A DNA stretch of 64,000 nt from a virus, in the IMG/VR virus record IMGVR_UViG_3300033571_002949, positions 1 to 64,000 of that record; one strand, 5' to 3'. The translations under genes were made by a program, and so were the position numbers. Within the stretch, counting starts at the first letter, position 1, and each line of letters starts with the position of its first letter. The notes beneath the pieces were generated by a model. It did no database searches. It was not told where the DNA came from and was given only the letters and a program-made list of their open reading frames with translations. Of this stretch, positions 47,649-62,866 are shown in pieces.

Positions 47649-48541
47649 AAATAAGAATAGCAGAACAAGATATCATTTATCTCAGTTACGATGAACCCAA
47701 TGCTGAGAAGAATTATGCAGATTTATTACACAAAGTACCTTGGGCTAAACGTGTACATGGAGTTAAAGGCAGCGATGCCGCACACAAAGCCTGTGCCGCA
47801 TTAAGCGACACAGAATATTTTGTCACAGTTGACGGTGACAATGTTATTGATTCTGAATTTATTAACGTAGAAATCGATTTAGATGAATTAGGGCTTGATG
47901 AAAGTTATGTATTCAGTTGGTGCGGTAAAGTTAACGTTAACGGATTAATGTATGGCAACGGCGGCCTTAAGTTATGGACTCGTAAATTTGTTAACAACAT
48001 GCGTACACATGAAAATTCTGACCCTGCTGATACTAAAGGTCTAGTAGAATTTTGTTTTGATGACAAATATTATCAATTCAATACTAATTATTCTACTAGC
48101 GTTATTAATGGCAGTGCTTTCCAAGCCTTCCGTGCAGGATTTCGAGAAGGCGTAAAGATGAGTTTAAATCAAGGAGCCAAAGTTAGTAACATTAAAGACG
48201 TGTGGTGGCAAAATTATCAACGTCTTTTAATCTGGTCTACGGTTGGCAGTGATGTGGAATATGGAGATTGGGCTATATATGGTGCTCGAGAAGGTTGCTA
48301 CTTGACTAATTGTACAGACTGGGACTATGCCAATGTTCGTGATTTTGAATACCTTACAGAACAGTGGAAAGAAAAATACAGTAAAATTACTGAGGAAATG
48401 TTACCATATGAAATTACAGGACTTGGTGTAACACTAAAAGAAGAATTAGGTTTAGAAATAGCAGACCTAGATAAACATGGCAGTAAATTTTTTAGAACAG
48501 TATATCAAAATACTCCAAGAATAATTGGAAGAAAACTATGA
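47645..48541 (+). CDS. Glycosyltransferase-like protein C, paralogue of the 59116 gene
   Basis: A 298-residue protein with IIYLSYDEPNAEKNYADL near the N-terminus, KRVHGVKGSDAAHKAC (about residues 35-50) and a DxD-like motif D63-G-D65 in VTVDGDNVI. The same order recurs in the protein at 59116-59811, so the two are paralogues. The layout fits a family-2-like GT-A enzyme that reads a nucleotide sugar, but the fold is inferred only from these motifs. A later Cys-rich segment (GCYLTNCTDW) is unusual. It overlaps its neighbours by 4 bp each. Confidence 0.6.
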   Translation: MKIRIAEQDIIYLSYDEPNAEKNYADLLHKVPWAKRVHGVKGSDAAHKACAALSDTEYFVTVDGDNVIDSEFINVEIDLDELGLDESYVFSWCGKVNVNGLMYGNGGLKLWTRKFVNNMRTHENSDPADTKGLVEFCFDDKYYQFNTNYSTSVINGSAFQAFRAGFREGVKMSLNQGAKVSNIKDVWWQNYQRLLIWSTVGSDVEYGDWAIYGAREGCYLTNCTDWDYANVRDFEYLTEQWKEKYSKITEEMLPYEITGLGVTLKEELGLEIADLDKHGSKFFRTVYQNTPRIIGRKL

Positions 48542-49953
48542 TCACTAGCAAGTTAGAATATTGGCCTAAGATTAAAGATCAACTAGATCAAGTAGGACCT
48601 GGATTTTGTTTGGCAAAATGGAATCAAGTAACAATTCATCTAGCCACAGGTCATACACATAGTTGTCATCATCCTAACACACATAAGATTCCTCTGCAAG
48701 AAATTGCCGCGGACCCTAGTGCATTACATAATACTCTATTCAAGAAACAACAACGCCAACGTATGTTAGACGGTGAACGTCCAGAAGAATGTAGTTATTG
48801 CTGGAATGTTGAGGATAATGTTAAAGAAGCACATATATTCAGTGACCGTGTACAAAAAAGTGCAGAATCTTGGAGTCAGAATTTTGAAGAAGTGCTGGCT
48901 GCTGGCGCAGAAAATTTTAATCCTACCTATGTTGAAGTTAGTTTTAGTAATGTTTGCAATTTTAAATGTTCGTATTGTTCACCAGAAGTATCTAGCAAAT
49001 GGATGGAGGAGATAGAACAATATGGGGCTTATCCAACTAGCAACAAATTTAATAATATCGAATGGTTAAAAAGCATTGACAAAATGCCTATACCTAACAA
49101 AGACTATAATCCTTATGTTAATGCGTTTTGGCACTGGTGGCCCGAGTTATATAAGACTCTAAAAGTGTTCCGTATTACTGGCGGCGAACCTTTATTAAGC
49201 AAAGATACGTTTAAAGTTTTAGATCATATCATAGAAAACCCTCGTCCTGAACTTGAACTAATGATTAACAGTAATCTCTGCATACCGGATGAATTGTTTA
49301 ATAAGTTTGTAGAAAAGATGAAACGTATTCAAGGCGAAGGCATGATCAAAGACTTTACCTTGTTTACTAGTTGCGAAGCACACGGCGAGCGAGCAGAATA
49401 TATTCGCAACGGTTTAAATTATAACAAATGGTTAGATAATTGTTATACGTACTTGGACAAAGTACCAAATGGTCGTTTAGGTATAATGAGCACCTATAAT
49501 ATTTTAAGTGTTACAAGTTACATGCCATTTATGAAAGACTTGTTAACACTAAACAAAACCTTTAATCATTATAAGGATAGAGTACATCCATTAATTTTTG
49601 ATATTCCATACTTACGTTATCCAGAACATCTTAGTATGACTATCCTTACACCTGATTATCTTAAACAAGTCGAAGAACAAGTAACGTTTATGTATCAGAA
49701 CCGTCAAACAGCAGATTGGCAACCTCTTGCTGGCAACGGTTTTTATGATTGGGAATGTAAAAAGTTAGAACGTGTTTATCATTTGCTAGAAAGCACTTTC
49801 AAAGTTGGCGAGCATCTACAACCAAGCACTGTAAATAAACGCAAAGATTTTGTACGTTTTGTTGACGAGCATGACCGTCGTCGTGGTACAAATTTCTTAC
49901 AAACCTTTCCAGAAATGGAAGAGTTCTACAACCTATGCAAGTCTTTAACATGA
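48538..49953 (+). CDS. Radical SAM protein with extra N-terminal cysteines (twitch-type)
   Basis: A 471-residue radical SAM enzyme. The cluster motif is C140-NFK-C144-SY-C147, followed by the SAM-binding Gly motif FRITGGEPLLS (about residues 219-229). Two Cys/His segments come before it (HTHSCHHPN near 40-48 and EECSYCWN near 82-89), as in proteins called twitch-domain radical SAM, where extra cysteines may bind a second iron-sulfur cluster. It would cleave SAM to a 5'-deoxyadenosyl radical and modify an unknown substrate, perhaps a sugar or peptide. It overlaps the genes before and after by 4 bp. Confidence 0.85.
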   Translation: MITSKLEYWPKIKDQLDQVGPGFCLAKWNQVTIHLATGHTHSCHHPNTHKIPLQEIAADPSALHNTLFKKQQRQRMLDGERPEECSYCWNVEDNVKEAHIFSDRVQKSAESWSQNFEEVLAAGAENFNPTYVEVSFSNVCNFKCSYCSPEVSSKWMEEIEQYGAYPTSNKFNNIEWLKSIDKMPIPNKDYNPYVNAFWHWWPELYKTLKVFRITGGEPLLSKDTFKVLDHIIENPRPELELMINSNLCIPDELFNKFVEKMKRIQGEGMIKDFTLFTSCEAHGERAEYIRNGLNYNKWLDNCYTYLDKVPNGRLGIMSTYNILSVTSYMPFMKDLLTLNKTFNHYKDRVHPLIFDIPYLRYPEHLSMTILTPDYLKQVEEQVTFMYQNRQTADWQPLAGNGFYDWECKKLERVYHLLESTFKVGEHLQPSTVNKRKDFVRFVDEHDRRRGTNFLQTFPEMEEFYNLCKSLT

Positions 49954-50381
49954 AATATATTAGTCATAGAGGAAATTTAAAAGGTCCTGAACCTGAATTA
50001 GAAAATGAGCCAGGGTACATTCAGGACGCTTTAGATGCTGGATTTGATGTAGAAGTTGATGTTTGGTATGTAGATGAAAAATTTATGCTAGGGCATGACG
50101 CACCTATATATGATGTAACCAAAAACTTTTTATTAGATAGTAGACTTTGGTGTCATGCTAAAACTCCCGAAGCATTAACAGCCATGTTAACAGCCGGAAT
50201 TCATTGCTTTTGGCATGAAAATGATGAAAGAACTTTAACTAGTCAGGGATTTATATGGACATATCCACACAAAAAATTAGTTGATCGTTCAGTAGTTGTA
50301 ATTTTAGACAAGGAATTAAATCATGAGTATGTCTCACGAGCAGTTGCAGTCTGCGGTGACTACGTTCAATCCTGGCGCTAA
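49950..50381 (+). CDS. GDPD-like phosphodiesterase, short
   Basis: A 143-residue protein starting at the ATG at 49950 (ATGA overlap with the preceding stop); an in-frame ATG 15 bases earlier is less likely. It has the glycerophosphodiester phosphodiesterase start SHRGN (His6-Arg7-Gly8), then DAGFDVEVDVWYVDEKFMLG and HD, giving the conserved Glu, Asp and second His of the family. The usual ENT motif is ENE here, and the protein is well short of the typical 240 or so residues, so the C-terminal half of the barrel is missing or replaced. It may act on a phosphodiester in a lipid or teichoic-type polymer, or be inactive. Confidence 0.6.
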   Translation: MKYISHRGNLKGPEPELENEPGYIQDALDAGFDVEVDVWYVDEKFMLGHDAPIYDVTKNFLLDSRLWCHAKTPEALTAMLTAGIHCFWHENDERTLTSQGFIWTYPHKKLVDRSVVVILDKELNHEYVSRAVAVCGDYVQSWR

Positions 50382-51132: not shown

Positions 51133-51853
51133 GATTGCTATCTGTATTAGCGGAATGCTACGAACAGGAATTCAAGCGTATCCTGTGTTTCGTAATTTTT
51201 TTGATTCTCTTGGCGAGTATGATATTTTTTATCATACCTGGAAGTTAGACTCATCAATATCTAATTTGTTAAAAACAACTTACAAACCTACAAGATTTTT
51301 AGAAGAAGATCCGCTTAATAATACTAAAGAAAGTTCGTTTGGTAGTATGTTATACAGTATAATGATGGCCAATGAACTTAAAAAACAATATGAGATTGAA
51401 AATAATTTCAGATATGATCTTGTAATTAAAACAAGGTTTGATCTTGTTTTTCCTAAGACTATTAAATTTCCTGTTGATGAAAATATATGGCCTAGAACAA
51501 TTTATAGTGTAAACGGAAATTGTGGTATAAATCATACTGATTATGAAAATCACGGTATTAGTGATGTAATATTTTGGGGAGATAGCCAAAGTATGGACCT
51601 GGCAACTAATATTTACAGGCATTATAAGTACACTACCTTAGTTAAAGACATGTATTTGAGGGACGGCTGGAAAATGGATGTAAAAGATTACTATCTAAGT
51701 CCAGGTACTATGATTTATCAACGCACAGTTAAACAAAATATAGCACATGTTAGATTGCCGTCTATTGGAGAAGTTCCGTGGAGGGACGATGTTGCTGAGT
51801 TAGATCCAGTTAAAGATTACGATAAAATAAGAGAGAGATATGCAAAAGGTTAA
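51119..51853 (+). CDS. Glycosyltransferase-like protein E
   Basis: A 244-residue protein. I place the start at TTG 51119, reading MKSGKIAICISG, because GGAGGG (51107-51112) lies 6 bases upstream; the farther TTG at 51098 is upstream of that site. Segments KIAICISGMLRTG, DIFYHTWK, LVIKTRFDLVFP and GISDVIFWGDSQSMDL align in order with the preceding protein. The KTRFDL segment is typical for this glycosyltransferase-like group. No signal peptide. The two genes overlap by 14 bp. Donor and acceptor are unknown. Confidence 0.6.
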   Translation: MKSGKIAICISGMLRTGIQAYPVFRNFFDSLGEYDIFYHTWKLDSSISNLLKTTYKPTRFLEEDPLNNTKESSFGSMLYSIMMANELKKQYEIENNFRYDLVIKTRFDLVFPKTIKFPVDENIWPRTIYSVNGNCGINHTDYENHGISDVIFWGDSQSMDLATNIYRHYKYTTLVKDMYLRDGWKMDVKDYYLSPGTMIYQRTVKQNIAHVRLPSIGEVPWRDDVAELDPVKDYDKIRERYAKG

Positions 51854-52658
51854 GACATTATTAGTAGATGGCGATAGTTGGACATACGGCAGTGAAATAC
51901 GCGATCCCAAGTTGCCAGAAGAAGTAAAAGATTGGGACCCACCGAATGATGAATATCGATTACCGCGTATTTGGCCAACAAAGTTGGGAGAAATGTTAGG
52001 TGCTGACGAAGTGTTTAACATCAGTTATCCTGCATCTAGCAATGATGGAATAGTGCGAAGAACAGTAGGATGGATTACTCAAGAATATCTAAGCAAAGGT
52101 CGCGATACTAGCGATCTATTTGTAGTCATAGGATTTACTAGTCCAGAACGAAAAGATTTTTATTATCGTGACATTGACGACAAATATAAACACTTTTGGT
52201 ACACACTTTGGCCAATGTGGAAACATCGTTATCCACAAGAGGAATTAAACAGATTTGCCGACATTTATGCTTCTTATATGTGGAACCCTGAAGAGTATAC
52301 ACATAGATATCTAAATCAAGTATTCTATTTGCAAACATTGTTTAATCATTACGGCATAAAACATTTATTTTTCCAAGCCTTTTATCAGCGTAATGATATG
52401 CATATACGTCAGTGGACAGATGATCCATATAACAAACACTACAACGGACAACCAGATCAAATGGTTTGGGACATGATTGATCCTACACGATTTATGCATA
52501 AGGATGACAAGATTCATAGTTTTCATAACTATATTTTAGATAAAGATACCAGCGAAGGAAAACGAAATAGTATTCTTAACATGCATCCTAGTGAATTAGG
52601 ACATACATGGTGGGCCGAACACATTTATGAATACGGCAAAGGAAAAAAATTATGGTAA
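51840..52658 (+). CDS. SGNH/GDSL hydrolase-like protein 1
   Basis: A 272-residue protein with the block-I motif G11-D12-S13-W14 in VDGDSWTYG, an Asn/Ser segment SYPASSNDGIVRR (block II-like), VVIGFTSPER, and a C-terminal HPSELGHTWWAEH giving a candidate catalytic His. SGNH proteins are esterases or acyltransferases, many of which add or remove O-acetyl groups on glycans. It is the first of three SGNH-like genes in a row. It overlaps the previous gene by 14 bp and the next by 7 bp. No signal peptide, so it should act in the cytoplasm or in the virion. Confidence 0.65.
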   Translation: MQKVKTLLVDGDSWTYGSEIRDPKLPEEVKDWDPPNDEYRLPRIWPTKLGEMLGADEVFNISYPASSNDGIVRRTVGWITQEYLSKGRDTSDLFVVIGFTSPERKDFYYRDIDDKYKHFWYTLWPMWKHRYPQEELNRFADIYASYMWNPEEYTHRYLNQVFYLQTLFNHYGIKHLFFQAFYQRNDMHIRQWTDDPYNKHYNGQPDQMVWDMIDPTRFMHKDDKIHSFHNYILDKDTSEGKRNSILNMHPSELGHTWWAEHIYEYGKGKKLW

Positions 52659-53425
52659 AAGAAATTGTAGTTTGCGGGGATAGTTTTGGCTGCGGTTCGG
52701 GCATCCCCTTAGAATCTTGTTTTGAAGCATCTTTTGGTGGACAAGTCGCAGATCATTTTAATGTTCCTTTGAATGTGTATGCTAGATCGGGGTGTTGTAA
52801 TTATGTGATATATCTGCAAGTTAAACAAGTAATTGAGGATTATCGTGCTAAAGAAAAACCATTTGTGTTAATATCAACAACTAATCACAGTCGATTTACA
52901 TTTCCTGTTGATACAACTTTAGGATATGTTAACTATACATTGGCTGATGTTGACTACGATAGTTATACTCCTTATTCTGAACATACAGGCCCAGGTCGTA
53001 GACCCAAGCCTATAGAAAATTTTAATAAACCTAAATTAATTAGTGAAACTGTTAGTAACATTTTATATTTTTTAGAACAAAATCCTGGAAATTTAGCACC
53101 GTTGTTTTACAGTATTAAAAGAAAAATAAAAACTGTTGAGCTTTATTTTAGAGATTTGTACGATGACGAAATTAAACAAGTTAATGATACTGGTTTAATA
53201 TTATTAATGCACAACGAATTAAAAGAGGCCGGAATTCCGCATTTAATAATGACACCTAGTGAACACAGAGATCGTTTTATAGATAAAGAAAATTTCTTTT
53301 ATAATAATTGGGGATACTATAGTCAAAAATATCCAGACTTGTACGGTAGCGGACATTGCACTGAAGTCGGTCACATGGAAGTAGCCAAAAAAATAATTAA
53401 ACGAATAGAAGGAACGAGTTTGTGA
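52652..53425 (+). CDS. SGNH/GDSL hydrolase-like protein 2
   Basis: A 257-residue protein with block I CGDSFGCGSG (nucleophile S11), a block-II-like RSGCCNYVIY, LISTTNHSRF, and a C-terminal GSGHCTEVGHMEVAKK that supplies a candidate His. It is divergent from its neighbours but has the same order of motifs. Overlaps are 7 bp upstream and 4 bp downstream. Function is probably linked to glycan acylation or deacylation, by family only. Confidence 0.6.
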   Translation: MVKEIVVCGDSFGCGSGIPLESCFEASFGGQVADHFNVPLNVYARSGCCNYVIYLQVKQVIEDYRAKEKPFVLISTTNHSRFTFPVDTTLGYVNYTLADVDYDSYTPYSEHTGPGRRPKPIENFNKPKLISETVSNILYFLEQNPGNLAPLFYSIKRKIKTVELYFRDLYDDEIKQVNDTGLILLMHNELKEAGIPHLIMTPSEHRDRFIDKENFFYNNWGYYSQKYPDLYGSGHCTEVGHMEVAKKIIKRIEGTSL

Positions 53426-54108
53426 AATTAGTGTATGCTAACGGTGATAGTTGGACGCATGGTGACGAATTATCTGCGTTCGATGACATAGATCAAACTT
53501 CTGTTCGATATTATAATTCTTGGCCGTGGAAATTATCTCAAATTTTAGACATTCCGGTATGTGTTAATGATGCACAAGGTGGCACAGGTAATTTACGTAT
53601 TTTTCGTAGAACTAACGAATTTATATATAGATGGATTGGTTCAGGAAAATCTGTCAGTGATTTATTAGTAGTAGTAGGATGGTCTACGCCCGAGCGTACA
53701 GAAATTGGTGAAGGAAAAGGAATATATCCAATACAGATTCAGGGTCCTTTGTATTTTACAGATTTACCACGTGATGATGTTTCTTTAGAAAACTATCATA
53801 AAGCATATTACGAAATATATTCAGACAGTTACGGAGAAAACTTAACAGCACTATATATGATGAATTTAAGAATGTTGTGCCAGGGATTAGGAATAAAATA
53901 TTTTGATTTTGTTGCTATAGGTAATCAACCTCAGCATTGGCAAGACTATATGAAATCAAAGTGGAATATAGAATTAACAAATATGTATATGAAAAGTACC
54001 TGGAGTGCTGAAGTTTATAATAATAAATGGAGTAAACATAAGCACGGACATCCTACTAAAGAAACTCATGAACTATGGGCTAACATTTTAGCCAAGGAAA
54101 TACAATGA
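53422..54108 (+). CDS. SGNH/GDSL hydrolase-like protein 3
   Basis: A 228-residue protein starting at GTG (4-bp overlap with the previous stop). Block I is ANGDSWTHGDE with nucleophile S10; AQGGTGNLRIFRR gives the block-II Gly/Asn; VVVGWSTPERTE resembles VVIGFTSPERKD in the first SGNH protein, indicating common origin; and HGHPTKETHELWA near the end supplies the His. It is followed by the sugar nucleotidyltransferase with an ATGA overlap. Confidence 0.65.
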   Translation: MKLVYANGDSWTHGDELSAFDDIDQTSVRYYNSWPWKLSQILDIPVCVNDAQGGTGNLRIFRRTNEFIYRWIGSGKSVSDLLVVVGWSTPERTEIGEGKGIYPIQIQGPLYFTDLPRDDVSLENYHKAYYEIYSDSYGENLTALYMMNLRMLCQGLGIKYFDFVAIGNQPQHWQDYMKSKWNIELTNMYMKSTWSAEVYNNKWSKHKHGHPTKETHELWANILAKEIQ

Positions 54109-54827
54109 ACATAATAATTGGACTATGCGGCCAAGGAAACCGATTTAAACAAGTAGGTTACGAATTGCCTAAATATCTTATTACGTATCATGGAGCACCA
54201 ATGATTTATCATAGTGTAGAAACTATAGGTATTAGAGGTAGAATACATTTTGTAGTAAGGAAAGAACATTTAGAACAATTTAATTTTTTAGAAAAAATGT
54301 TGTTAGGGTTAGGAGACGAAATCATAACCATAAATGGTAACACACAAGGTGCCGCAGAAAGTTTATTATATACTAAGCCTTATATCAAAGATTTAAATGC
54401 TCCTATGCTTAGTGTAAATGGTGACCAATTTATGGATTGGAAATCTTATCAATTTCAAGATGAAATACAACGGAATCCTGAAACAAGTTATATTGTAACT
54501 TACAACGAAACTAGCCCTAAATGCAGTTATGTTCGAGAGGATCAAGATCGTGTTGTTGAAGTAAGAGAGAAACAAGTTATTAGTAACGACGCAACTACGG
54601 GGTATTATCATTGGGCTCACACACATGATTTTTTTCAAGATGCTGAACAAATGATTAAAGAAGGACACAAAGAAAACGGAGAGTTTTATGTTGCTCCAGT
54701 TTATAATTATACTATTGCTAGAGGAAAAACAGTAAAAAAGTTTTCTATAAGTAATAAAGAGTTTTATCCAGTAGGCACTCCCGACGATTTAACAAAATTT
54801 CAAAGACTAAGCACAAGGTTTGATTAA
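54105..54827 (+). CDS. Sugar-phosphate nucleotidyltransferase-like protein
   Basis: A 240-residue protein of the NTP-transferase (RmlA-type) fold. The N-terminal glycine-rich signature is GLCGQGNRF (residues 6-14) with P22-K23 in LPKYLI, the usual GxGxRF...PK pattern, followed by MLSVNGDQFMDW near residue 100, whose Asp is the metal-binding candidate. Such enzymes activate a sugar 1-phosphate to an NDP-sugar. The pyrophosphorylase motif is slightly unusual (GLCGQGNRF rather than LAGGxGTR). It lies between the SGNH cluster and the cupin, RuBisCO-like, kinase and cyclase genes, so it may activate the cyclitol phosphate made there. Confidence 0.72.
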   Translation: MNIIIGLCGQGNRFKQVGYELPKYLITYHGAPMIYHSVETIGIRGRIHFVVRKEHLEQFNFLEKMLLGLGDEIITINGNTQGAAESLLYTKPYIKDLNAPMLSVNGDQFMDWKSYQFQDEIQRNPETSYIVTYNETSPKCSYVREDQDRVVEVREKQVISNDATTGYYHWAHTHDFFQDAEQMIKEGHKENGEFYVAPVYNYTIARGKTVKKFSISNKEFYPVGTPDDLTKFQRLSTRFD

Positions 54828-55162
54828 TGAAAAAAGCACACATTGATAACTTTATTAAAGGATGGTTCGTTGGAAATTTTGAACCTAGCCTACTTAAAGA
54901 AAATTTTGAAGTTGGTTTCCATCAGCACAAAGCAGGCGATTTTCATCAAGATCATTTTCATAAACACAGTACTGAAATTAACTTAGTAGTAGAGGGCAAA
55001 GTCAAAATAAACGGAGAAGTATTTAGGGCAGGTGACATCTTTGTTTTGGAGCCTTACGAAATTAGCCAATGCGAATATCTTACAGATGTTAAATTAGTTG
55101 TAGTACGGAATCTAAGCGACCCTAATGATAAGTTTGAAGTCCAAATAGTTGACAAAAAATAA
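54827..55162 (+). CDS. Small cupin-domain protein
   Basis: A 111-residue single-domain cupin. The metal-binding motif is visible at about residues 36-61 (DFHQDHFHKHSTEINLVVEG: several His, the Glu, then Gly), and the second motif (FRAGDIFVLEPYE) follows. Cupins of this size are often sugar isomerases, epimerases or metal-dependent sensors. Its start overlaps the previous stop by one base (TAATG), and the end of its coding sequence contains the -35 box of the promoter for the RuBisCO-like gene. A sugar-modifying role is inferred from context. Confidence 0.72.
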   Translation: MKKAHIDNFIKGWFVGNFEPSLLKENFEVGFHQHKAGDFHQDHFHKHSTEINLVVEGKVKINGEVFRAGDIFVLEPYEISQCEYLTDVKLVVVRNLSDPNDKFEVQIVDKK

Positions 55163-55177
55163 AAAATACTTTACAAT
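55149..55177 (+). promoter_or_regulatory. Sigma70-type promoter for the RuBisCO-like gene
   Basis: TTGACA (55149-55154), exactly 17 bp, TACAAT (55172-55177): eleven of twelve consensus bases. The -35 box lies in the last codons of the cupin gene. Expected start is near 55184, just ahead of the AAAGGA ribosome-binding site and ATG at 55194. It gives this gene and those after it a second promoter inside the operon. Confidence 0.78.
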
Positions 55178-55193
55178 AACAGAAAGGAAAAGT

Positions 55194-56426
55194 ATGAAAT
55201 TTTTTCGAGAACTAACTCAAACAGAAAAAGATCGTTGTGTTATTGCAACATATTATATTGAAACGTATTCTGACATAGGAGATTTACGCGATGCCGCTTG
55301 GAATCTTGCTATAGGTCAAAGTGTTGGAAATCCAAAAATACGAAATCAGTGGGAAACTGATGAATTGTTTGAAAGGTCATCCTGTGTGATTTATCACAAT
55401 GAATCAGAATTAACAGGCAAGCATAGTGGCACAATTAAGATTGGATTTCCTAAAATAAACTCCGATTGGCAAGGGGATGGCATCAGTCATCTTATGTGTC
55501 AATTAATGGGCGGCCAGATGGATATTAATGTGTTTAAAGCCTGCAGATTAAAACACATTGAGTTTCCTAAAGATGTCGAACAGCAATTTTTAGGACCTCG
55601 ACAAGGTATTACGGGTATTAGAAAATTTGTTAATCGCTATGACAAACCTCTGTCAGGAGCCATTGTAAAACCTAAAACTGGCATTAGTCCTGCTACTCTA
55701 GCAGACATGGTTAAAGAATTAATAGACGGCGGTGTAGATTTTATCAAGGAAGACGAGATATTGTCTAACCCTAGTTTTTGTCGTTTAGAGGATCGTGTTG
55801 AATTAATTTCTAACATTGTTAATAATTGCGGTCGTGGAGTTATCTATTGCTTCTGTATTAATGGCGATCATCATACTATTCTTGACCGTGCTAAGTTTGT
55901 AGCCAACAATGGCGGTAACGGTATTCACATTAATTTCTGGAGCGGTCTAGGAGTTTATAATTCAATACGCAGATTAGATTTTCCATTGTTTATTCATTAC
56001 CAGAAGAGTGGTGATAAGATTCTTACAGACAAACGCAACCCGTTTGGTATTGATTGGTCAGTACTGTGTGACCTTGCTGGACTATGCGGTGTAGATACTA
56101 TTCATGCGGGCATGTGGGGAGGCTATTTAAGTGACAACGAAGATGAACTTAAATACACCATGGAAACTCTGCATAAACGAAATGTTCTTCCTGCACTAAG
56201 TTGTGGCATGCATCCTGGGATTGTTAATCCAACAGCAGAAAAATTTGGTACTGATTTTCTTGCTAACTGCGGCGGCGCTATACACGGGCACCCAGACGGT
56301 ACTCTAGCCGGAGCATTAGCCATGCGTCAGGCCATTGACAAAACTCCTGGAAAAGAGTTTTTGACAGCAATAGAAAAATGGGGCTATGTAGGCGGTTCCT
56401 TACCCGAGTGGGTATTAGATTTTTAA
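55194..56426 (+). CDS. RuBisCO-like protein (form IV-type large-subunit homologue)
   Basis: A 410-residue protein of the RuBisCO large-subunit fold. Matches to active-site landmarks: K159 and K161 in AIVKPKTGIS (RuBisCO K175 and K177); K185-E-D187-E188 in FIKEDEIL, keeping the carbamylated Lys, Asp and Glu metal ligands; H268 and H304 at the positions of H294 and H327; S336 in LSCGMHPG (S379); and Gly360-Gly361 in CGGAIHGHP (phosphate site). The loop-6 lysine (K334) is not found: HAGMWGGYLSD occupies the place of HSGTVVGKLEG. So it is probably not a carboxylase but an enolase, isomerase or decarboxylase-type RLP. The start is the ATG at 55194, downstream of the promoter; a TTG at 55149 is unlikely. 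Confidence 0.88.
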   Translation: MKFFRELTQTEKDRCVIATYYIETYSDIGDLRDAAWNLAIGQSVGNPKIRNQWETDELFERSSCVIYHNESELTGKHSGTIKIGFPKINSDWQGDGISHLMCQLMGGQMDINVFKACRLKHIEFPKDVEQQFLGPRQGITGIRKFVNRYDKPLSGAIVKPKTGISPATLADMVKELIDGGVDFIKEDEILSNPSFCRLEDRVELISNIVNNCGRGVIYCFCINGDHHTILDRAKFVANNGGNGIHINFWSGLGVYNSIRRLDFPLFIHYQKSGDKILTDKRNPFGIDWSVLCDLAGLCGVDTIHAGMWGGYLSDNEDELKYTMETLHKRNVLPALSCGMHPGIVNPTAEKFGTDFLANCGGAIHGHPDGTLAGALAMRQAIDKTPGKEFLTAIEKWGYVGGSLPEWVLDF

Positions 56427-56427
56427 T

Positions 56428-57387
56428 ATGGATATAATTGAACTAAAAGGCGGTAGTTTAAATTCAACTTGTTTATATGTTGACGGTGATCGCAAATTTG
56501 TAAGAAAAACTATTTCGACTACTGCCGATAGAGAATACGGCTATGTACGTTGGTACAGTCAATTAAAAAAATTACAAAGATTTAATCAGATAATTCCCCA
56601 GCACGTTCCTCGAGTTCTGGATGCTGGTGTGTGTGATAAAGGTGCATATTTTGACATTGAATATATTGATGCTAAAGATATTAAAACACTGTTTAAAGAA
56701 AATTTACTAGATGCCCACCAGACTGAAAAAATGCATCAACAGTTGTGGCAAGCGTTTGATACTTTACATCAACACACTTATCAACCAAACATTAGTAGTT
56801 TAAAACTTTATTTTCAGGAAGAAGTTTTACAAAAAATTAATGATGCTAGACAGTTTTCAGAGTTTGAAAACTTTTATCAAATGGATGTCTATGTACATTG
56901 GGGAGAAACATTTAGTGGTATTAAACATAAATTAGAACAATTATCTAAGTTGTTTGATCAAGTTATAACTACAGAAAGTTACGTACACGGAAATCCAACG
57001 CTAGAAAATATTCTTTACAGCGAAGAAACAGGTATAGTGTTTATTGACTTATATGAAGAAGGTATTGTAGACAGCAAGTTTATGGACTATAGTCAGATAC
57101 TACAATGTAGTAGCAGTTACTACGGTATTCTTAATGACAGTGTGATACGTGTAAAAGGAAACGTTACAGGATTCGACACTAAGTTTCCAAAAAATTTATT
57201 GTACTTCGATAAACTGTTTAATGAAGAATTAGAGCGTAGATTTACAAATCAGGAATATTTGTTGATAAGATTATTTGAAGCCACACAGTTTTTTCGTATG
57301 TTGCCGTTTAAATGTCACGCTGGAAACATAGAAGCGGCAAAGTTTTTTTATGCTCATGCTTGCGCTCTCGTAAATAAACTATTATGA
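56428..57387 (+). CDS. APH-fold kinase-like protein with HGN in place of HGD
   Basis: A 319-residue protein of the aminoglycoside phosphotransferase / choline-kinase fold. The catalytic-loop motif is H187-G188-N189-PTLE-N194 and the metal-binding Asp is D207 in VFIDLYEEG; the N-terminal Lys candidate is in RKFVRKTIS. In typical members the third residue of the loop is the catalytic Asp (HGD), so N189 is a notable change that could mean loss of activity or altered chemistry. It starts 1 bp after the RuBisCO-like gene and overlaps the cyclase by 4 bp. It could phosphorylate a cyclitol or sugar, as kinases do in C7-cyclitol pathways. Confidence 0.68.
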   Translation: MDIIELKGGSLNSTCLYVDGDRKFVRKTISTTADREYGYVRWYSQLKKLQRFNQIIPQHVPRVLDAGVCDKGAYFDIEYIDAKDIKTLFKENLLDAHQTEKMHQQLWQAFDTLHQHTYQPNISSLKLYFQEEVLQKINDARQFSEFENFYQMDVYVHWGETFSGIKHKLEQLSKLFDQVITTESYVHGNPTLENILYSEETGIVFIDLYEEGIVDSKFMDYSQILQCSSSYYGILNDSVIRVKGNVTGFDTKFPKNLLYFDKLFNEELERRFTNQEYLLIRLFEATQFFRMLPFKCHAGNIEAAKFFYAHACALVNKLL

Positions 57388-58445
57388 CATGGCGTGTAAA
57401 GACTACCCTTCCTGTAGAGTTTGATATAGTCAAAGTACCTAATGCATTGGATTGGGACATAATTCCCGGTCAGCGTAGAATAGCCGTGGTTGATGAAACA
57501 GTCTATGCTTTGTACAAAGACAAAATTCCCGCTGGCACAGAGATTTTTACAGTACGCAGTACAGAATCTGAAAAAGATTGGAAAAACGCCGAACGTGTTT
57601 TACAGTTTTTTCAAGATATAAAATTACTACGGAGAGAAACGGTTATTGCTGTAGGCGGTGGAGTTCTTTTAGACTTAGTAGGATTTTGTTGCAGTATATA
57701 TCGTAGAGGTGTTCCTTATGTTAGAATACCAACTACACTATTGGCTATTGTTGATGCTAGTGTAGGTGCAAAAACAAGCATTAATCATTTTGGGTTTAGA
57801 AATAGAATTGGTAGTTTTTATCCACCGACATTGACATTAATTGATAAGTCTTTTATTAAAACACAAGATCACAGAGAAATATCAAACGGCATGGCAGAAA
57901 TTTTAAAGTTAGCCATAGTTCTTGATTATCAATTATTTGAATTAATTGAACTTAATCCGCAGGAATTACTAAGACTTAAATTTCAAAATTATGTGTTAGC
58001 AGATAAAATAATTGATCGTGCAATTTCGGGTATGACTGAAGAACTGAATGATAATCTTTGGGAACGAGACTTACAGCGTCCTGTAGATTTTGGACATACA
58101 TTTAGTCCTATGGTTGAAATGAAAAATGTTCCTAATTTGTTACATGGTGAAGCAGTAATGTTAGATTGTCTTTTAAGTGCTTGTATTAGTAATTTAAGAG
58201 GATATATCAGCAACGATCATTTACACCGTATTTTTAAAACTGTTCGCAGTTGTGACTTGCCTACAGAACACAAAGATTTTTATAATGTTGACCTGCTGTG
58301 GGCAGGTTTACAAGATGTAATGAACCATCGCAATGGTAATCAATATATACCTGTTCCTATAAGTATTGGCCGTTGCGAAATTATCAATGACGTAACACGC
58401 AGTGAAATAGAACAGGCCTGCGACCGAATGAGAAGTATGCAATGA
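57384..58445 (+). CDS. Sugar-phosphate cyclase, 2-epi-5-epi-valiolone synthase-like
   Basis: A 353-residue member of the dehydroquinate synthase superfamily. NAD-binding G91-G-G93 in VIAVGGGVLLDLVG; SIYRRGVPYVRIPTTLLA (104-121); the metal ligands are E172 in NGMAEILKLAIV, H238 in DFGHTFSPMVE and H254 in LLHGEAVMLD. The FGHTFSP, RRGVPYVRIPTTL and HGEAVMLD forms, and a short loop after GAKTSIN, resemble the valiolone-synthase branch more than dehydroquinate synthase, which has FGHTIGHA. Such an enzyme makes a C7-cyclitol from sedoheptulose 7-phosphate. ATGA overlaps join it to the kinase-like and SDR genes. The branch assignment is from memory. Confidence 0.82.
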   Translation: MTWRVKTTLPVEFDIVKVPNALDWDIIPGQRRIAVVDETVYALYKDKIPAGTEIFTVRSTESEKDWKNAERVLQFFQDIKLLRRETVIAVGGGVLLDLVGFCCSIYRRGVPYVRIPTTLLAIVDASVGAKTSINHFGFRNRIGSFYPPTLTLIDKSFIKTQDHREISNGMAEILKLAIVLDYQLFELIELNPQELLRLKFQNYVLADKIIDRAISGMTEELNDNLWERDLQRPVDFGHTFSPMVEMKNVPNLLHGEAVMLDCLLSACISNLRGYISNDHLHRIFKTVRSCDLPTEHKDFYNVDLLWAGLQDVMNHRNGNQYIPVPISIGRCEIINDVTRSEIEQACDRMRSMQ

Positions 58446-59116
58446 AAACAGTATTAATTACAGGTTCTAGTCGAGGGCTAGGTAAAGCACTGACAGAAAC
58501 ATTTTTACAAAATGGATGGAAAGTTGTTGGAGTTAGTAGAACAGATTTAAAGAGTTATGACAACTATACACACATAGTTGCTGATGTGGCTAATATTGGC
58601 CAAGTCCATACTGCATTTGATCTACTTAAAAAAACTAAAACTAAAATTGATGTGTTAATAAACAATACGGCTGCTTTTCATATGGGCGACTTTGCAGATT
58701 CAAAATATTTTGATATTGCGAATGTTATTGATACTAATGTAAAAGGCACAATGTATGTGACTAATCAAGCGTTAACAATAATGGAGCCAGGTTCAAAAGT
58801 TGTTTTTGTTAACAGTGTAGCAGGACTAAGAGAAATTCAACATCAGAGCATTTACTGTGCCAGCAAGGCTGCTTTAAAAAGTTTTGCCGGAGTGTTAGGC
58901 CAAGAACTTAGACAGAGGGGTATAAAAGTATCTAGTATACATCCAGGCGGCATTAACACAACCTTATGGAATGAAAATAATCCATATCCTTGCGGTGATG
59001 TTACTAACGCTTTAGATCCACACCATCTTTCAGAAATGATCTATCGCATCTCGTCTGATACTAGTAATACTGAATACAAAACTATAACAATGTTTCCTGA
59101 AGTGGAGTGGCACTAA
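58442..59116 (+). CDS. Short-chain dehydrogenase/reductase (SDR)
   Basis: A 224-residue classical SDR: cofactor loop TGSSRGLG (residues 7-14), D48 in ADVAN, NNTA (74-77), catalytic S125, Y138 and K142 (VNSVAG; YCASK), and HPGG after it. Arg33 in VSRTD suggests NADPH preference. It would oxidise or reduce a hydroxyl or keto group, for example on the cyclitol made by the upstream cyclase. Overlaps of 4 bp and 1 bp (TAATG) tie it to its neighbours. Confidence 0.88.
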   Translation: MKTVLITGSSRGLGKALTETFLQNGWKVVGVSRTDLKSYDNYTHIVADVANIGQVHTAFDLLKKTKTKIDVLINNTAAFHMGDFADSKYFDIANVIDTNVKGTMYVTNQALTIMEPGSKVVFVNSVAGLREIQHQSIYCASKAALKSFAGVLGQELRQRGIKVSSIHPGGINTTLWNENNPYPCGDVTNALDPHHLSEMIYRISSDTSNTEYKTITMFPEVEWH

Positions 59117-59811
59117 TGTACGACATAGTGTTTATCAGTTACGGTGAGCCTAATGCAGAAGCCAATTGGGAACGATTAAAAAATAGATATCCCTTGGCTA
59201 AACGTGTTACCAATGTGGCAGGAATTCATCAAGCACATATTGCCGCGGCTAAAAAAGCCTTTACTAAAATGGTTTGGGTAGTGGATGGCGATGCAGAGGT
59301 ATTACCTACATTTAATTTTGACTACGAAGTTAGCGAATGGGATTTAGATGTAGTACATGTATGGCGCAGTCGTAATCCTATAAATGATTTAGAATACGGG
59401 TACGGCGGAGTAAAACTATTGCCACGTAAGTTAACGCTGGATATGGATATTTCTAAACCAGACATGACTACCAGTATTAGTACAAAATTTAAAGCAATGG
59501 CTGAAGTTAGTAATATTACTGCTTTTAACACTGATCCGTTTAATACTTGGAAGAGTGCGTTTCGCGAGTGCGTTAAGTTAGCCAGTAAAGTTATAGATGG
59601 ACAAGTTGACACTGAAACTGAGCATAGGTTATTAGAGTGGTGTACCCCACACGTAGATAGATTGCACGGTAACTGGGCGTTTCTTGGCGCAGAGGATGGC
59701 AAAATGTACGGCATGCAAAAGGCCGGAGATTTAAAAGCACTAGGTAAAATAAATGATTTTGAATGGCTACGACAATTCTTTTCAAGATATCCCGTTCCAC
59801 CAAATAGTTAA
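59116..59811 (+). CDS. Glycosyltransferase-like protein F, paralogue of the 47645 gene
   Basis: A 231-residue protein starting at the ATG at 59116 (TAATG overlap); a GTG 9 bases earlier is an alternative. It has IVFISYGEPNAEANWERL, KRVTNVAGIHQAHIAA and the DxD-like D57-G-D59 in VVDGDAEV, in the order seen in the protein at 47645-48541. It lacks the C-terminal third of that protein. Such duplications at the two ends of the island suggest that the glycan is built by several related transferases. Donor and acceptor are unknown. Confidence 0.58.
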   Translation: MYDIVFISYGEPNAEANWERLKNRYPLAKRVTNVAGIHQAHIAAAKKAFTKMVWVVDGDAEVLPTFNFDYEVSEWDLDVVHVWRSRNPINDLEYGYGGVKLLPRKLTLDMDISKPDMTTSISTKFKAMAEVSNITAFNTDPFNTWKSAFRECVKLASKVIDGQVDTETEHRLLEWCTPHVDRLHGNWAFLGAEDGKMYGMQKAGDLKALGKINDFEWLRQFFSRYPVPPNS

Positions 59812-60751
59812 ATTTGGTCAACGCACTATGCTTGAACGACCTTTGTTCAACGTAAGTTGGATACTAGGTCGTTTTTGTAATTATAATTGTAGTTACTGCT
59901 GGCCCTATGCTAGAAGTGATAAATTGGATCATCTAGATTATGAAACTTATACAAACACCGTTGACGAAATAAAACGTCAGGCACGTGAACAAGGCTTCAC
60001 TGATTTTCATTGGAGTTTTAGTGGCGGCGAACCTACAGCATATAAACGATTATTAGATTTAGTTAAACATTTAGACGATGGAGTAAAATCTCCTTATCAA
60101 AGTATCCACATGACTACTAATCTTAGTCCAGGAAGTAAGTGGTGGGGCACCTGGTGTAAAAATACTGAGATGCTACAACGCAGAAGTTTAACAGCCAGTT
60201 TCCATACAGAATTTGCACGTGAACAAGAATTTGGAGACAAATGTCTACAATTAAATTACGAAGGTGTTCATGTAACAGTAAATCAGGTAATGGTTCCAGA
60301 ATTGTTCTGGGACACCTATGCACGATGCGAACGTCTATACAAACGAGGTATAAATGTAACACTAAAACCTCAAAGCGATCCTACGGCTAGTTTTGTAGTC
60401 AGTGGTTACGATGACAAAATGTTAGAGGTTATGCAAACAGGATTTCCGCAATTATCGAGTGGCGAGCAGTTGTATCAGGTAGCATTATTTGACGAGTTAG
60501 GGCACGAATATTTGTTTGATCAAGCCGAAAGATTTAACGCATTTGGTTTTAACAAATTTCAAAATTGGACTTGCAATGCTGGCTATCAAAGTGTTATAAT
60601 AAGAAGCAACGAAGTTAAACGTAGTTATAGTTGTCACGATGAATCATTAGGAACTTTGATAAGCGGATTTAAATTATTTGACAGTCCTAAAAAATGTATA
60701 ACTCCAACTTGTGTTAGTTCGGCAGATAGTAAAATACCAAAAATAAAATGA
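59753..60751 (+). CDS. Radical SAM protein 2
   Basis: A 332-residue radical SAM enzyme with C42-NYN-C46-SY-C49 and the Gly motif WSFSGGEPTAYKR (about residues 86-98). Late cysteines (NWTCNAGYQ, YSCHDES, KKCITPTCVSS) suggest a SPASM-type auxiliary cluster. The start shown overlaps the preceding gene by 59 bp; an ATG at 59828 (MLERPLFNVSW) would remove the overlap and keep all motifs. The substrate is unknown; it may modify a sugar or protein in the glycan pathway. Confidence 0.82.
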   Translation: MILNGYDNSFQDIPFHQIVKFGQRTMLERPLFNVSWILGRFCNYNCSYCWPYARSDKLDHLDYETYTNTVDEIKRQAREQGFTDFHWSFSGGEPTAYKRLLDLVKHLDDGVKSPYQSIHMTTNLSPGSKWWGTWCKNTEMLQRRSLTASFHTEFAREQEFGDKCLQLNYEGVHVTVNQVMVPELFWDTYARCERLYKRGINVTLKPQSDPTASFVVSGYDDKMLEVMQTGFPQLSSGEQLYQVALFDELGHEYLFDQAERFNAFGFNKFQNWTCNAGYQSVIIRSNEVKRSYSCHDESLGTLISGFKLFDSPKKCITPTCVSSADSKIPKIK

Positions 60752-61419
60752 AAAGATTAATAGCGTTCGGAGATTCCATGACCTATGGTGTAGGATTAGA
60801 AGATTGCTGGCCGGATACCGAGAAACCTAGTAAGCACTGTTGGCCCGAAATAATTGCGTCGACACTTGGAAGAAAATGCATTAACAAATCAGTGCCAGGG
60901 TCTAGTAACAAACGAATATGGTATTCTATATCTAAGTTTAAATTCCGTTCAGACGATTTGGTATTAATTTTATGGACATATCCTGATAGAACTGCGGTTA
61001 TTCGAACTCCCTTTAATATAACAAATTTATTGCCTAGTCAAGTAGGCAATAGTTATGGAGAAGTAGAAATAATGGCACGTAGTTATTATGAAAATCTTCA
61101 TGCTTTCTATGATTCTGATGTCGCAAGCAAACTTTATATAAGAGATGCTACTAGAAAAATAAAAGATCTGGGACTAGAGTTTTATCAGATGATTGCTGAG
61201 CCTCGAGATAAGTTTTTATTTGAAAATATAGAACATATTTCGCTATTCATGAGTAACTATGAAAGAAATTATAATAAAGCCCTAGACGACAATCATGCCG
61301 GACCCGACGGTCACAAAGCATTTGCTCGAGATTTTTTAAAATATATAAATGTTGATACAGATTTAGTTGCTCCTAAACCTTTAAGTTTTTTTGAAAAGAT
61401 TAAAAAAAGATGCAGATAG
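60748..61419 (+). CDS. SGNH/GDSL hydrolase-like protein 4
   Basis: A 223-residue protein with AFGDSMTYG (nucleophile S10), SVPGSSNKRIWYS (block II), ILWTYPDRTA, and DNHAGPDGHKAFA near residue 190, whose D and H form the family's DxxH-type pair. This is the most canonical of the four SGNH-like proteins in the island. The C-terminal 20 residues are basic. It overlaps neighbours by 4 and 10 bp. Confidence 0.7.
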   Translation: MKRLIAFGDSMTYGVGLEDCWPDTEKPSKHCWPEIIASTLGRKCINKSVPGSSNKRIWYSISKFKFRSDDLVLILWTYPDRTAVIRTPFNITNLLPSQVGNSYGEVEIMARSYYENLHAFYDSDVASKLYIRDATRKIKDLGLEFYQMIAEPRDKFLFENIEHISLFMSNYERNYNKALDDNHAGPDGHKAFARDFLKYINVDTDLVAPKPLSFFEKIKKRCR

Positions 61420-62000
61420 ATACAGAACATTTACACCACTGGATGAGAGCAATTCGATCTAGCAAAGATCCTATACGTACCATGGATGCTTTTTGGAGAG
61501 GCCAAATTCTTAGTAAAGAATGGTTAATAGACAATATTAAACCGTTTGTCAATCAAGAAGTGTCTATAGACATACATGGCGGGTGGGTAGGAGTGTTATC
61601 TAGTATGTTGTTTCAATCTGGCTTATCTATTAAACATATTCGTAGTATCGACATAGATCCAGACTGCAAGGATATAGCATCTAATATGAATCAGATAGAA
61701 CTAGAACAAGGAAGATTTAGAGCTGTCACAGCAGATATGTGTACTATTCGCAGTGATGCAGATATTATAATTAATACTAGTTGTGAACACATTACACAAG
61801 ATCAATACGACACTTGGTCAATAGGACATCCTAACAACAGTCTATTGGTATTACAGAGCAACAACTACAGCATTCCTGAACACGTTAGGCCTGCTCAAGA
61901 TTTAGAAGAATTTAAATCTCAATGTGATGTAAATGTATTATGGGCAGGAGAATTAGAACTACCCCTGTACAAGCGATTTATGATTATAGGAACTAGATGA
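61410..62000 (+). CDS. Class I SAM-dependent methyltransferase-like protein
   Basis: A 196-residue protein with a Rossmann-type methyltransferase order: SIDIHGGWVGVLSSML (motif I region, about residues 52-67), RSIDIDPDC (acidic end of strand 2), VTADMCTI (motif II) and INTSCEHI (motif IV region). The usual GxGxG is GGWVG here. It may methylate a sugar or small molecule of the pathway, but the fold is inferred from these short matches. Overlaps of 10 and 4 bp link it to the genes on each side. Confidence 0.55.
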   Translation: MQIDTEHLHHWMRAIRSSKDPIRTMDAFWRGQILSKEWLIDNIKPFVNQEVSIDIHGGWVGVLSSMLFQSGLSIKHIRSIDIDPDCKDIASNMNQIELEQGRFRAVTADMCTIRSDADIIINTSCEHITQDQYDTWSIGHPNNSLLVLQSNNYSIPEHVRPAQDLEEFKSQCDVNVLWAGELELPLYKRFMIIGTR

Positions 62001-62866
62001 TGAACAAACATTTTATTGAAATAGCACAATTTTACATGACTAATGTTTGTAATCTTACCTGTAATAATTGCTGTACTTTCAATAATAGAAGATTTTCGGG
62101 ACACTATAAATTTAACGATTATCGAGATCATTATATTGAGTGGTCAAAAAAAGTTGATTTAGATTTTATGAGTATCCTAGGTGGAGAACCGTATGCTAAT
62201 CCAGATTTACCAAATTGGATAGATGGTCTCAGATCCTGCTGGCCAGATAACAAAAATTTTAGTATTTGTACAAACGGATCTTATCTCTCTACCTTCAAAG
62301 AATTGTCAAGAGATGCAATAAAAAAGGGATTATGGTTAGAAATAAATGTTCACGATCCTAATCAATATGATGATATTAAAAACAATTTGTTAGAAATTAT
62401 CAGTGTCTTTAATTATGAAGAAAAAGTTATACCTGATAAATTTCATGTAGATCATCTTGAATACTATGCTGACGGTATAAAAATAGCTCAAATAGTCAAA
62501 TATTATAATTTTTTTAATTCAGCAACTACAGAGATTAAAAATAGAGTAACGTATTTTCATAATAGTAATCCAGAAATTGCTCACAGTGCTTGTTCAGCAT
62601 TTGATTGTCATTATTTTGTAAGAGGCGAACTTTATAAATGTTTTTTAACAGCAGTGGGAAGAGATTTAAATCAGCAATTTTTGATAGAGGATCGTGCTAA
62701 AACTCTTCTAGAAAACTATCAGGCCTGCTCACCGTGGTCTTCGGACGAACAAATTAAACAATTTATGAACAATATTAAAACCCCAATATCTCAATGTAGT
62801 CTTTGTCCAGAAAAATTAAATTTACAGCCTATATGGCCTTTAGAAAAGACCAAAATTAAATTGTAG
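61997..62866 (+). CDS. Radical SAM protein 3
   Basis: A 289-residue radical SAM enzyme: C18-NLT-C22-NN-C25 at the N-terminus, the Gly motif LGGEPYANP (about residues 61-69), and later cysteines (SACSAFDCHYF, YKCFL, QCSLCPEKL) likely to bind an auxiliary cluster. It is the last gene of the overlapping operon; a hairpin follows. It shares no close similarity with the other two radical SAM proteins here beyond the fold motifs. Confidence 0.82.
   Translation: MMNKHFIEIAQFYMTNVCNLTCNNCCTFNNRRFSGHYKFNDYRDHYIEWSKKVDLDFMSILGGEPYANPDLPNWIDGLRSCWPDNKNFSICTNGSYLSTFKELSRDAIKKGLWLEINVHDPNQYDDIKNNLLEIISVFNYEEKVIPDKFHVDHLEYYADGIKIAQIVKYYNFFNSATTEIKNRVTYFHNSNPEIAHSACSAFDCHYFVRGELYKCFLTAVGRDLNQQFLIEDRAKTLLENYQACSPWSSDEQIKQFMNNIKTPISQCSLCPEKLNLQPIWPLEKTKIKL

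Follow-up and report, generated by a model that had tools for sequence, protein, structure and literature searches.

What does a RuBisCO-like protein (RLP) do among the glycan genes of a phage? The question arises from a 64,000-nucleotide stretch of viral DNA (hereafter the window; positions 1 to 64,000 of IMG/VR record IMGVR_UViG_3300033571_002949, which holds 85,912 bases). Its RLP gene occupies positions 55194-56426 on the + strand, where an ATG-initiated reading frame without internal stop encodes 410 amino acids (P0001) and a purine-rich AAGGAAAAG lies just 5' of the ATG. The preliminary description, made from the sequence alone, had assigned the window to a T4-like phage, and the PHROGs matches agreed. 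The portal matched phrog_213 (E 2e-115), the baseplate wedge matched phrog_10646 and an SbcC-like gene also found a PHROGs family; on these matches the phage is classed as T4-like. The portal was 49-52% identical to the portals of large phages such as Atu_ph07 (eight best rows), and the structural region also contains a reading frame of 4472 amino acids (24151-37569, + strand). That the RLP gene lies inside a glycan island, likewise proposed at the outset, was borne out by the genes in the ORF list and by Pfam. The island also encodes four proteins with a GDS-type start (51840-54108 and 60748-61419), two of which match DUF6071, and three proteins with a radical-SAM-like CxxxCxxC motif (48538-49953, 59753-60751 and 61997-62866), the first of which matches the PHROG of that name.

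P0001 belongs to the RuBisCO large-chain superfamily, by profile and by its two-domain fold. PF00016 covered residues 138-382 (E 2.2e-43; 149.1 bits against a cut-off of 30.1), and the best solved relative by sequence was the RuBisCO of P. horikoshii (2cwx, E 4.9e-43). The RuBisCO fold anticipated in the preliminary description was recovered in an AlphaFold2 model built from a 36-row alignment (mean pLDDT 93.1, pTM 0.91). Foldseek identified a form III RuBisCO, 2d69, as the nearest solved fold (TM 0.86), and VIA-align superposed 379 residues of the model on 2d69 with an rmsd of 2.1 (Z 43.1). Scores of 42.5 for the RLP 2oem and 42.4 for 2zvi placed MtnW-type structures level with form III.

We mapped the active site on a 69-row alignment, reading the equivalents of E60 and N123 by eye from motif blocks, and we take the roles of the numbered residues to be those generally assigned in RuBisCO. 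The enolisation sites are kept: RuBisCO K175, K177, K201, D203 and E204 correspond to K159, K161, K185, D187 and E188 of P0001. H327 (H304), S379 (S336), G381 (G338) and G403/404 (G360/361) are kept as well, and the active-site landmarks listed in the preliminary description fall on RuBisCO sites. Across P0001 and 101 related loci, K159, K161, K185, E186, D187 and E188 were invariant (102 of 102 rows), the metal ligands equivalent to K201, D203 and E204 among them; H304 was histidine in 97 of 101 family rows. E60, N123, H294 and K334 are required for CO2 addition in carboxylating RuBisCO. In P0001 these positions are changed to G41, G107, Q270 and Y311, respectively, with further changes at R295 (K271), H298 (D274) and T65 (N46). 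Q270 is peculiar to the RLP family, all 43 reference rows having histidine there. The absence of the loop-6 lysine had been pointed out before, and its position is tyrosine in all 101 family rows that have a residue there. Because the equivalents of E60, N123, H294 and K334 are absent, carboxylation by the RLP is very unlikely.

The phylogeny placed the family apart from the carboxylases. In a tree of 69 rows, 26 family rows made up one side of a branch with 100/100 support and a stem of 0.99, and that side held no form I, II, III, OiaX-like, MtnW or other RLP rows; the tree left out 11 of the 36 family rows and redundant references, and its references included no identified IV-GOS, IV-AMC, IV-DeepYkr or IV-Aful rows. 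The viral rows sat in a group of 18, starred in the tree, with three cellular rows (L083, L086 and L101). Outside the viral part, the clade comprised Elusimicrobia, Azospirillum, Legionella, DPANN archaea and one Pelagibacter group; with the root placed at the midpoint, a direction of transfer is only inferred. A family profile gave 368-675 bits for 17 family loci, most of which had themselves been in that profile, and no more than 246 for the remaining 108 of 125 loci. Against the form III model TIGR03326 the RLP scored 206 bits (cut-off 497). Tree, residues and curated scores rule out membership in the carboxylase forms I-III and in MtnW. With a RuBisCO fold, changed carboxylation residues and a position outside those forms, the protein is of form IV type and a putative non-carboxylase, as the preliminary description had predicted; its further suggestion of a phage-rich group distinct from the MtnW clade also agrees with the tree.

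Searches of IMG/VR returned 246 relatives with the single RLP sequence and 297 confirmed stretches with the family alignment. Pattern scans of the same collection gave 208 matches with a forms I-III alignment and 186 with an OiaX-like and MtnW alignment, none of them confirmed, by a method that can miss divergent forms and that had no positive control in the cellular collection. Among 84,980 species genomes of cells, 33 stretches matched and 21 were relatives, several of them on contigs of 3-8 kb that could be viral. Beyond the seeds, family-level scores were reached by none of 368 genomes in the class of Legionella, none of 288 in the class of the Pelagibacter genome L092 and one of 193 in the phylum of L093. 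INPHARED phages contained no RLP at E 1e-5, PHROGs contained no family for it at E 0.001, and the BFVD matches listed included no RuBisCO fold (best-ranked TM 0.38 to the query). The viral loci analysed were the best 80 of 246 for the RLP, of 297 for the alignment, of at least 590 for a HAD-nucleotidyltransferase and of 450 for the cupin, so that locus counts describe the loci nearest to each query. Clustering of the 80 RLP loci gave 44 groups at 95% protein identity and 17 at 80%. Near-identical records are included in the counts, as with L002, whose RLP and neighbours are 100% identical to those of the window.

The neighbours that matter for the function are the following.

49935..50381, + strand: mini-GDPD-like protein, 148 amino acids; HRG...EN...ExD...GH invariant in the alignment
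54105..54827, + strand: PF00483 nucleotidyltransferase, 240 amino acids; Pfam E 8.5e-8, best PDB match by profile 4evw (E 2.3e-35)
54827..55162, + strand: small cupin-like protein, 111 amino acids, with an HxH(x4)E motif; phrog_24762 (function unknown), E 3.5e-33
55194..56426, + strand: RLP (P0001), 410 amino acids; ORF, PF00016, model, tree and alignment
56428..57387, + strand: APH/fructosamine-kinase-like protein, local rather than core; PF03881 E 7.8e-8, PF01636 E 2e-6
57384..58445, + strand: 3-dehydroquinate-synthase-like protein, a possible sugar-phosphate cyclase, local rather than core; PF01761 E 5.2e-37
58442..59116, + strand: short-chain dehydrogenase (SDR), local rather than core; PF00106 E 9.3e-40

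The cupin-like protein stayed under the Pfam cut-offs (Cupin_7, E 0.002). The GDPD-like protein, encoded 4.8 kb upstream of the RLP gene in the window, had no Pfam match and matched GDPDs weakly by profile (3i10, E 1.8e-4) and by Foldseek (2pz0, TM 0.59, E 5e-3; model pLDDT 95.2). Against NCBIfam, the dehydroquinate-synthase-like protein scored 215 bits for aroB (cut-off 305) and 167 for TIGR04425 (cut-off 400).

Neighbour genes were counted with a simple ORF caller or by tblastn at 1e-5 or 1e-6 rather than by profile scans. In 76 of 80 viral loci (best 80 of 246), a nucleotidyltransferase gene lay on the same strand as the RLP gene and no more than 1.5 kb from it, always upstream. At the 21 cellular loci the nearest one within that distance was downstream in 12, upstream in five and absent in four. 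Because the gene is near the RLP in 17 of 21 cellular loci, mostly on the other side, the link outlives rearrangement; that this RLP is without the carboxylation residues and is linked to a nucleotidyltransferase is firm. A cupin gene lay within 600 bases in 58 of 80 viral loci, directly upstream, and in 3 of 21 cellular ones. A GDPD-like gene was no more than 1.5 kb away in 49 of 80 viral and 9 of 21 cellular loci. With tblastn hits anywhere in the locus DNA accepted, the nucleotidyltransferase, cupin and GDPD-like protein were found in 78, 67 and 63 of the 80 viral loci and in 19, 5 and 12 of the 21 cellular loci. The preliminary description had looked to cyclase and kinase genes as the defining context. 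Its expectation of a phage-rich clade held; the recurring neighbours are the nucleotidyltransferase, the cupin and the GDPD-like protein, and the kinase-cyclase-SDR block was rejected as core context, being present in only 8 of 80 viral and none of 21 cellular RLP loci. When loci were instead selected for resemblance to the cupin of the window, 16 of 78 had the block.

Several cellular loci have arrangements of their own. In Legionella nautarum, L. drozanskii and L. maceachernii, a divergent LicD gene (PF04991, E 1e-42 in L. nautarum; a single LicD match per genome) lies beside the RLP-nucleotidyltransferase pair, at ~6.6-10 kb of each locus (L098, L099 and L100). This suggests phosphodiester transfer of the product in Legionella. 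As a general partner of the RLP, LicD was rejected (3 of 35 records, all three Legionella). In the Pelagibacter loci L088 and L092, the RLP gene is located between two different nucleotidyltransferase copies with a GDPD-like gene upstream, and in another Pelagibacter genome (L084) an RLP homologue adjoins a gene of an epimerase-like cluster.

RLP and neighbours did not always diverge together. L004 and L013 encode RLPs that are 85-88% identical to the window's, alongside nucleotidyltransferases and cupins that are only 36-37% and 45-48% identical, respectively. In L356 (3575-8467) and L361 (5279-10166), compared with window positions 54105-59811, the neighbours were 59-85% identical (nucleotidyltransferase 67-70%, kinase 73-75%, cyclase 77-79%, glycosyltransferase-like protein 83-85%) and the RLP 48%. 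Most simply, one RLP would have been exchanged for another in place.

A second enzyme occupies the place of the RLP in related cassettes. The same nucleotidyltransferase recurs in cyanophage Bellamy with an RpiB domain (PF02502, E 3.9e-32) at its C terminus, and the same cupin is encoded directly after it; SynMITS9220M01 has nucleotidyltransferase and cupin matches in the same order and an equally long gene, the RpiB part of which was outside the Pfam scan. The fusion was common to 30 IMG/VR loci, Bellamy's own record included, and tblastn of their DNA found an RLP in none of the 30. Among 80 viral loci anchored on the cupin (the best 80 of 450, in order of similarity to the cupin of the window), 55 had the RLP, 19 had RpiB, six had neither and none had both. 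RpiB was found nowhere in the 24 whole RLP-bearing virus records examined, of 81. The hypergeometric probability of this alternation was 1.5e-13, a value that ignores the relatedness of the loci. On the cupin tree, from which, as from the cassette trees, near-identical rows were left out, two changes sufficed to explain RpiB, with one RpiB-less locus inside the RpiB group; the alternation thus amounts to one or two events.

The RpiB cassettes also contain more genes. A PfkB-like gene was present in 30 of 30 and a KdsC-like HAD gene in 29 of 30, and neither was found in any of 101 RLP loci (tblastn 1e-5). The Bellamy matches behind these names were a PfkB match at E 6e-5, under its cut-off, and a Hydrolase_3 match at E 1.5e-4, just over its cut-off. 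Such a cassette is usually read as isomerase, kinase, phosphatase and nucleotidyltransferase, the steps of heptose-nucleotide synthesis. In RLP cassettes, the pathway seems to arrive at the nucleotidyltransferase without the kinase and phosphatase of the RpiB cassettes, and the limitation of both genes to the RpiB cassettes indicates that the RLP does not simply stand in for RpiB one for one. A HAD domain was not the rule in RLP cassettes: a match just upstream of the nucleotidyltransferase-cupin-RLP row occurred in 8 of 80, in L070 and L078 inside the same open frame as the nucleotidyltransferase. A separate HAD-nucleotidyltransferase viral cassette is very common (at least 590 confirmed stretches); among the best 80 of these, HAD was joined to the same nucleotidyltransferase with a GDPD-like gene in 76, and one had an RLP.

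Cyanophage S-SKS1 has a related nucleotidyltransferase in fusion with RibB (PF00926, E 5.4e-65), followed by an HGDxxxxNIL-motif protein and a HAD. The RibB fusion was found in 11 IMG/VR loci, and none of the 12 RibB loci (S-SKS1 included) contained an RLP. RibB was nevertheless rejected as an occupant exclusive of the RLP. In L396 (1637-7520), L397 and L401, which are one viral lineage (95-99.8% identical over 12.3 kb), a RibB-APH-like-nucleotidyltransferase-HAD group adjoins a nucleotidyltransferase-cupin-RLP group. RibB and RLP coexist here, each with its own nucleotidyltransferase, which makes RibB a parallel cassette. RibB, like RpiB a family of ribulose-5-phosphate enzymes, cleaves a C-C bond of its substrate, and the fusion still shows this family of transferases paired with enzymes of ribulose phosphate.

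Because the protein no longer has the residues for carbon fixation and a sugar-activating enzyme is adjacent in most of the viral loci examined, the RLP most likely helps to make an unusual sugar. The reading we favour, at close to an even chance, is that it is an enediolate-forming ketose-phosphate isomerase (or epimerase) whose product enters the sugar-nucleotide pathway of a glycan. We infer the chemistry from the alternation with RpiB and the retained enolisation residues. The RLP would be a carbamate-activated isomerase that depends on Mg2+ and acts on a ketose phosphate, the probable substrate being a pentulose phosphate. K159 would take the proton beside the carbonyl, the metal on carbamylated K185, D187 and E188 would stabilise the enediolate, and reprotonation at the other position would yield a new phosphosugar; with the carboxylation residues missing, CO2 would not be expected to add. 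The nucleotidyltransferase next to the RLP would activate the product, and local glycosyltransferases would put the activated sugar on a glycan of the host envelope or the virion. The linkage to the nucleotidyltransferase, the RibB fusion and the LicD adjacency in Legionella point the same way, and form IV offers a precedent in the methylthioribulose-1-phosphate isomerase of R. rubrum. Against it stand the extra PfkB-like and KdsC-like genes, the one or two events behind the alternation and the coexistence with RibB. Also, the usual substrates of PF00483 enzymes are anomeric phosphates, and a pentulose isomerase does not produce these directly.

Other chemistries would fit the same cassette. 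It is possible, and in our estimate unlikely, that the RLP resembles OiaX or the RLP of the D-hamamelose pathway and works as a decarboxylase, C-C lyase or oxygenase; its substrate would be a phosphorylated sugar acid, branched or keto, and its product a shortened or branched building block. The cleaving activity of RibB, fused to a related transferase, is consistent with this, as are the 151.7 bits that the RLP scored on the OiaX model (NF042437) and the hamamelose-pathway oxygenase RLP mentioned in the accessible text of PMC10173188. That score is far below the OiaX cut-off of 700, however, and OiaX-like rows, which form a separate clade, keep H294, R295 and K334 (10 of 10 each), all changed in P0001. 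A four-carbon acid sugar kinase gene adjoins six plasmid RLPs, and none was present among the Pfam-scanned neighbours of the P0001 family. A dehydrating or tautomerising enolase, MtnW-like and working on a diketo or keto sugar phosphate in a glycan pathway, would also retain the enolisation residues and would account for the level fold scores of 2oem and 2zvi. We consider it quite unlikely, as the MtnW rows stand apart in the tree, the RLP scored 123.7 bits on TIGR03332 against a cut-off of 513.6, and three MtnW rows differ at K177, R295 and H327, which are K161, K271 and H304 in P0001. T4-like phages modify their DNA, and the RLP might act after activation, on a nucleotide sugar, or the cassette might serve DNA-base hypermodification rather than a surface-glycan phosphosugar. 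To this we give a slim chance, since RuBisCO-fold enzymes work on phosphosugars and chromosomal homologues adjoin LicD in Legionella and the epimerase-like cluster gene in the Pelagibacter genome L084. An auxiliary role in carbon fixation or methionine salvage, the usual 'viral rbcL' annotation, would suit the PF00016 match and the carbon-fixation genes reported in the accessible text of PMC8506154 and PMC12615777, and is highly improbable given the missing E60, N123, H294 and K334 equivalents and a clade apart from forms I-III and MtnW.

Beyond the favoured isomerase reading, a wider proposal seems to us possible rather than probable: within the RuBisCO superfamily, a clade found mostly in viruses would have been recruited to biosynthesis, making the phosphosugar from which a new nucleotide sugar is built and having replaced RpiB or been replaced by it, and would be the main viral form of the RuBisCO fold, so that many 'viral rbcL' would be glycan-pathway genes. 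A large part of the superfamily for which we found no described function would thereby gain a testable role, the supply of a phosphosugar for a nucleotide sugar, and RuBisCO-type chemistry would build glycan sugars, outside carbon fixation, methionine salvage and sugar-acid catabolism. For virome surveys, this suggests that the carboxylation residues of 'rbcL' calls be checked before the genes are counted as carbon fixation.

Viral rbcL genes from landfills group with 'RbcL-like' proteins (PMC12607003), others come from the Great Salt Lake (PMC8506154), and a mine-soil viral rbcL1 co-expressed with rbcS gave activity in lysate (PMC12615777), according to the accessible parts of these papers. 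The GOS survey, in the part accessible, described 65 homologues of RuBisCO that make up new groups, clustering with none of the known forms (PMC1821046), and IV-GOS appears among the form IV subgroups in the accessible text of PMC10173188. The present family, likened by description to those GOS homologues, is possibly IV-GOS, a clade first recognised in ocean metagenomes. The accessible parts of all five papers do not mention the nucleotidyltransferase cassette, and a literature search with subscription papers and preprints outside its scope found no paper on a rubisco-like protein with a nucleotidyltransferase and polysaccharide.

Among characterised relatives, form III RuBisCO (P. horikoshii 2cwx/2d69) has the fold, the metal site, K175/K177, H327, S379 and GG403-404 in common with the RLP, whereas the RLP is without E60, T65, N123, H294, R295 (lysine in the RLP), H298 and K334 and belongs to a separate clade. 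The form IV enolase MtnW/YkrW, like the RLP, combines a RuBisCO fold with the absence of the loop-6 lysine, and its rows too form a clade of their own. The OiaX-like RLPs of apionate pathways are PF00016 relatives, and in one of them (L222) glycine also replaces N123; they differ from P0001 in keeping H294/R295/K334. The closest parallel in gene context is the Bellamy RpiB/LacAB fusion, which takes the same place as the RLP in an otherwise shared nucleotidyltransferase-cupin-GDPD-like cassette. RpiB is of another protein family (PF02502), and its cassettes add the PfkB-like and KdsC-like genes. The RpiB cassettes of cultured cyanophages are thus a natural comparator for those of the RLP.
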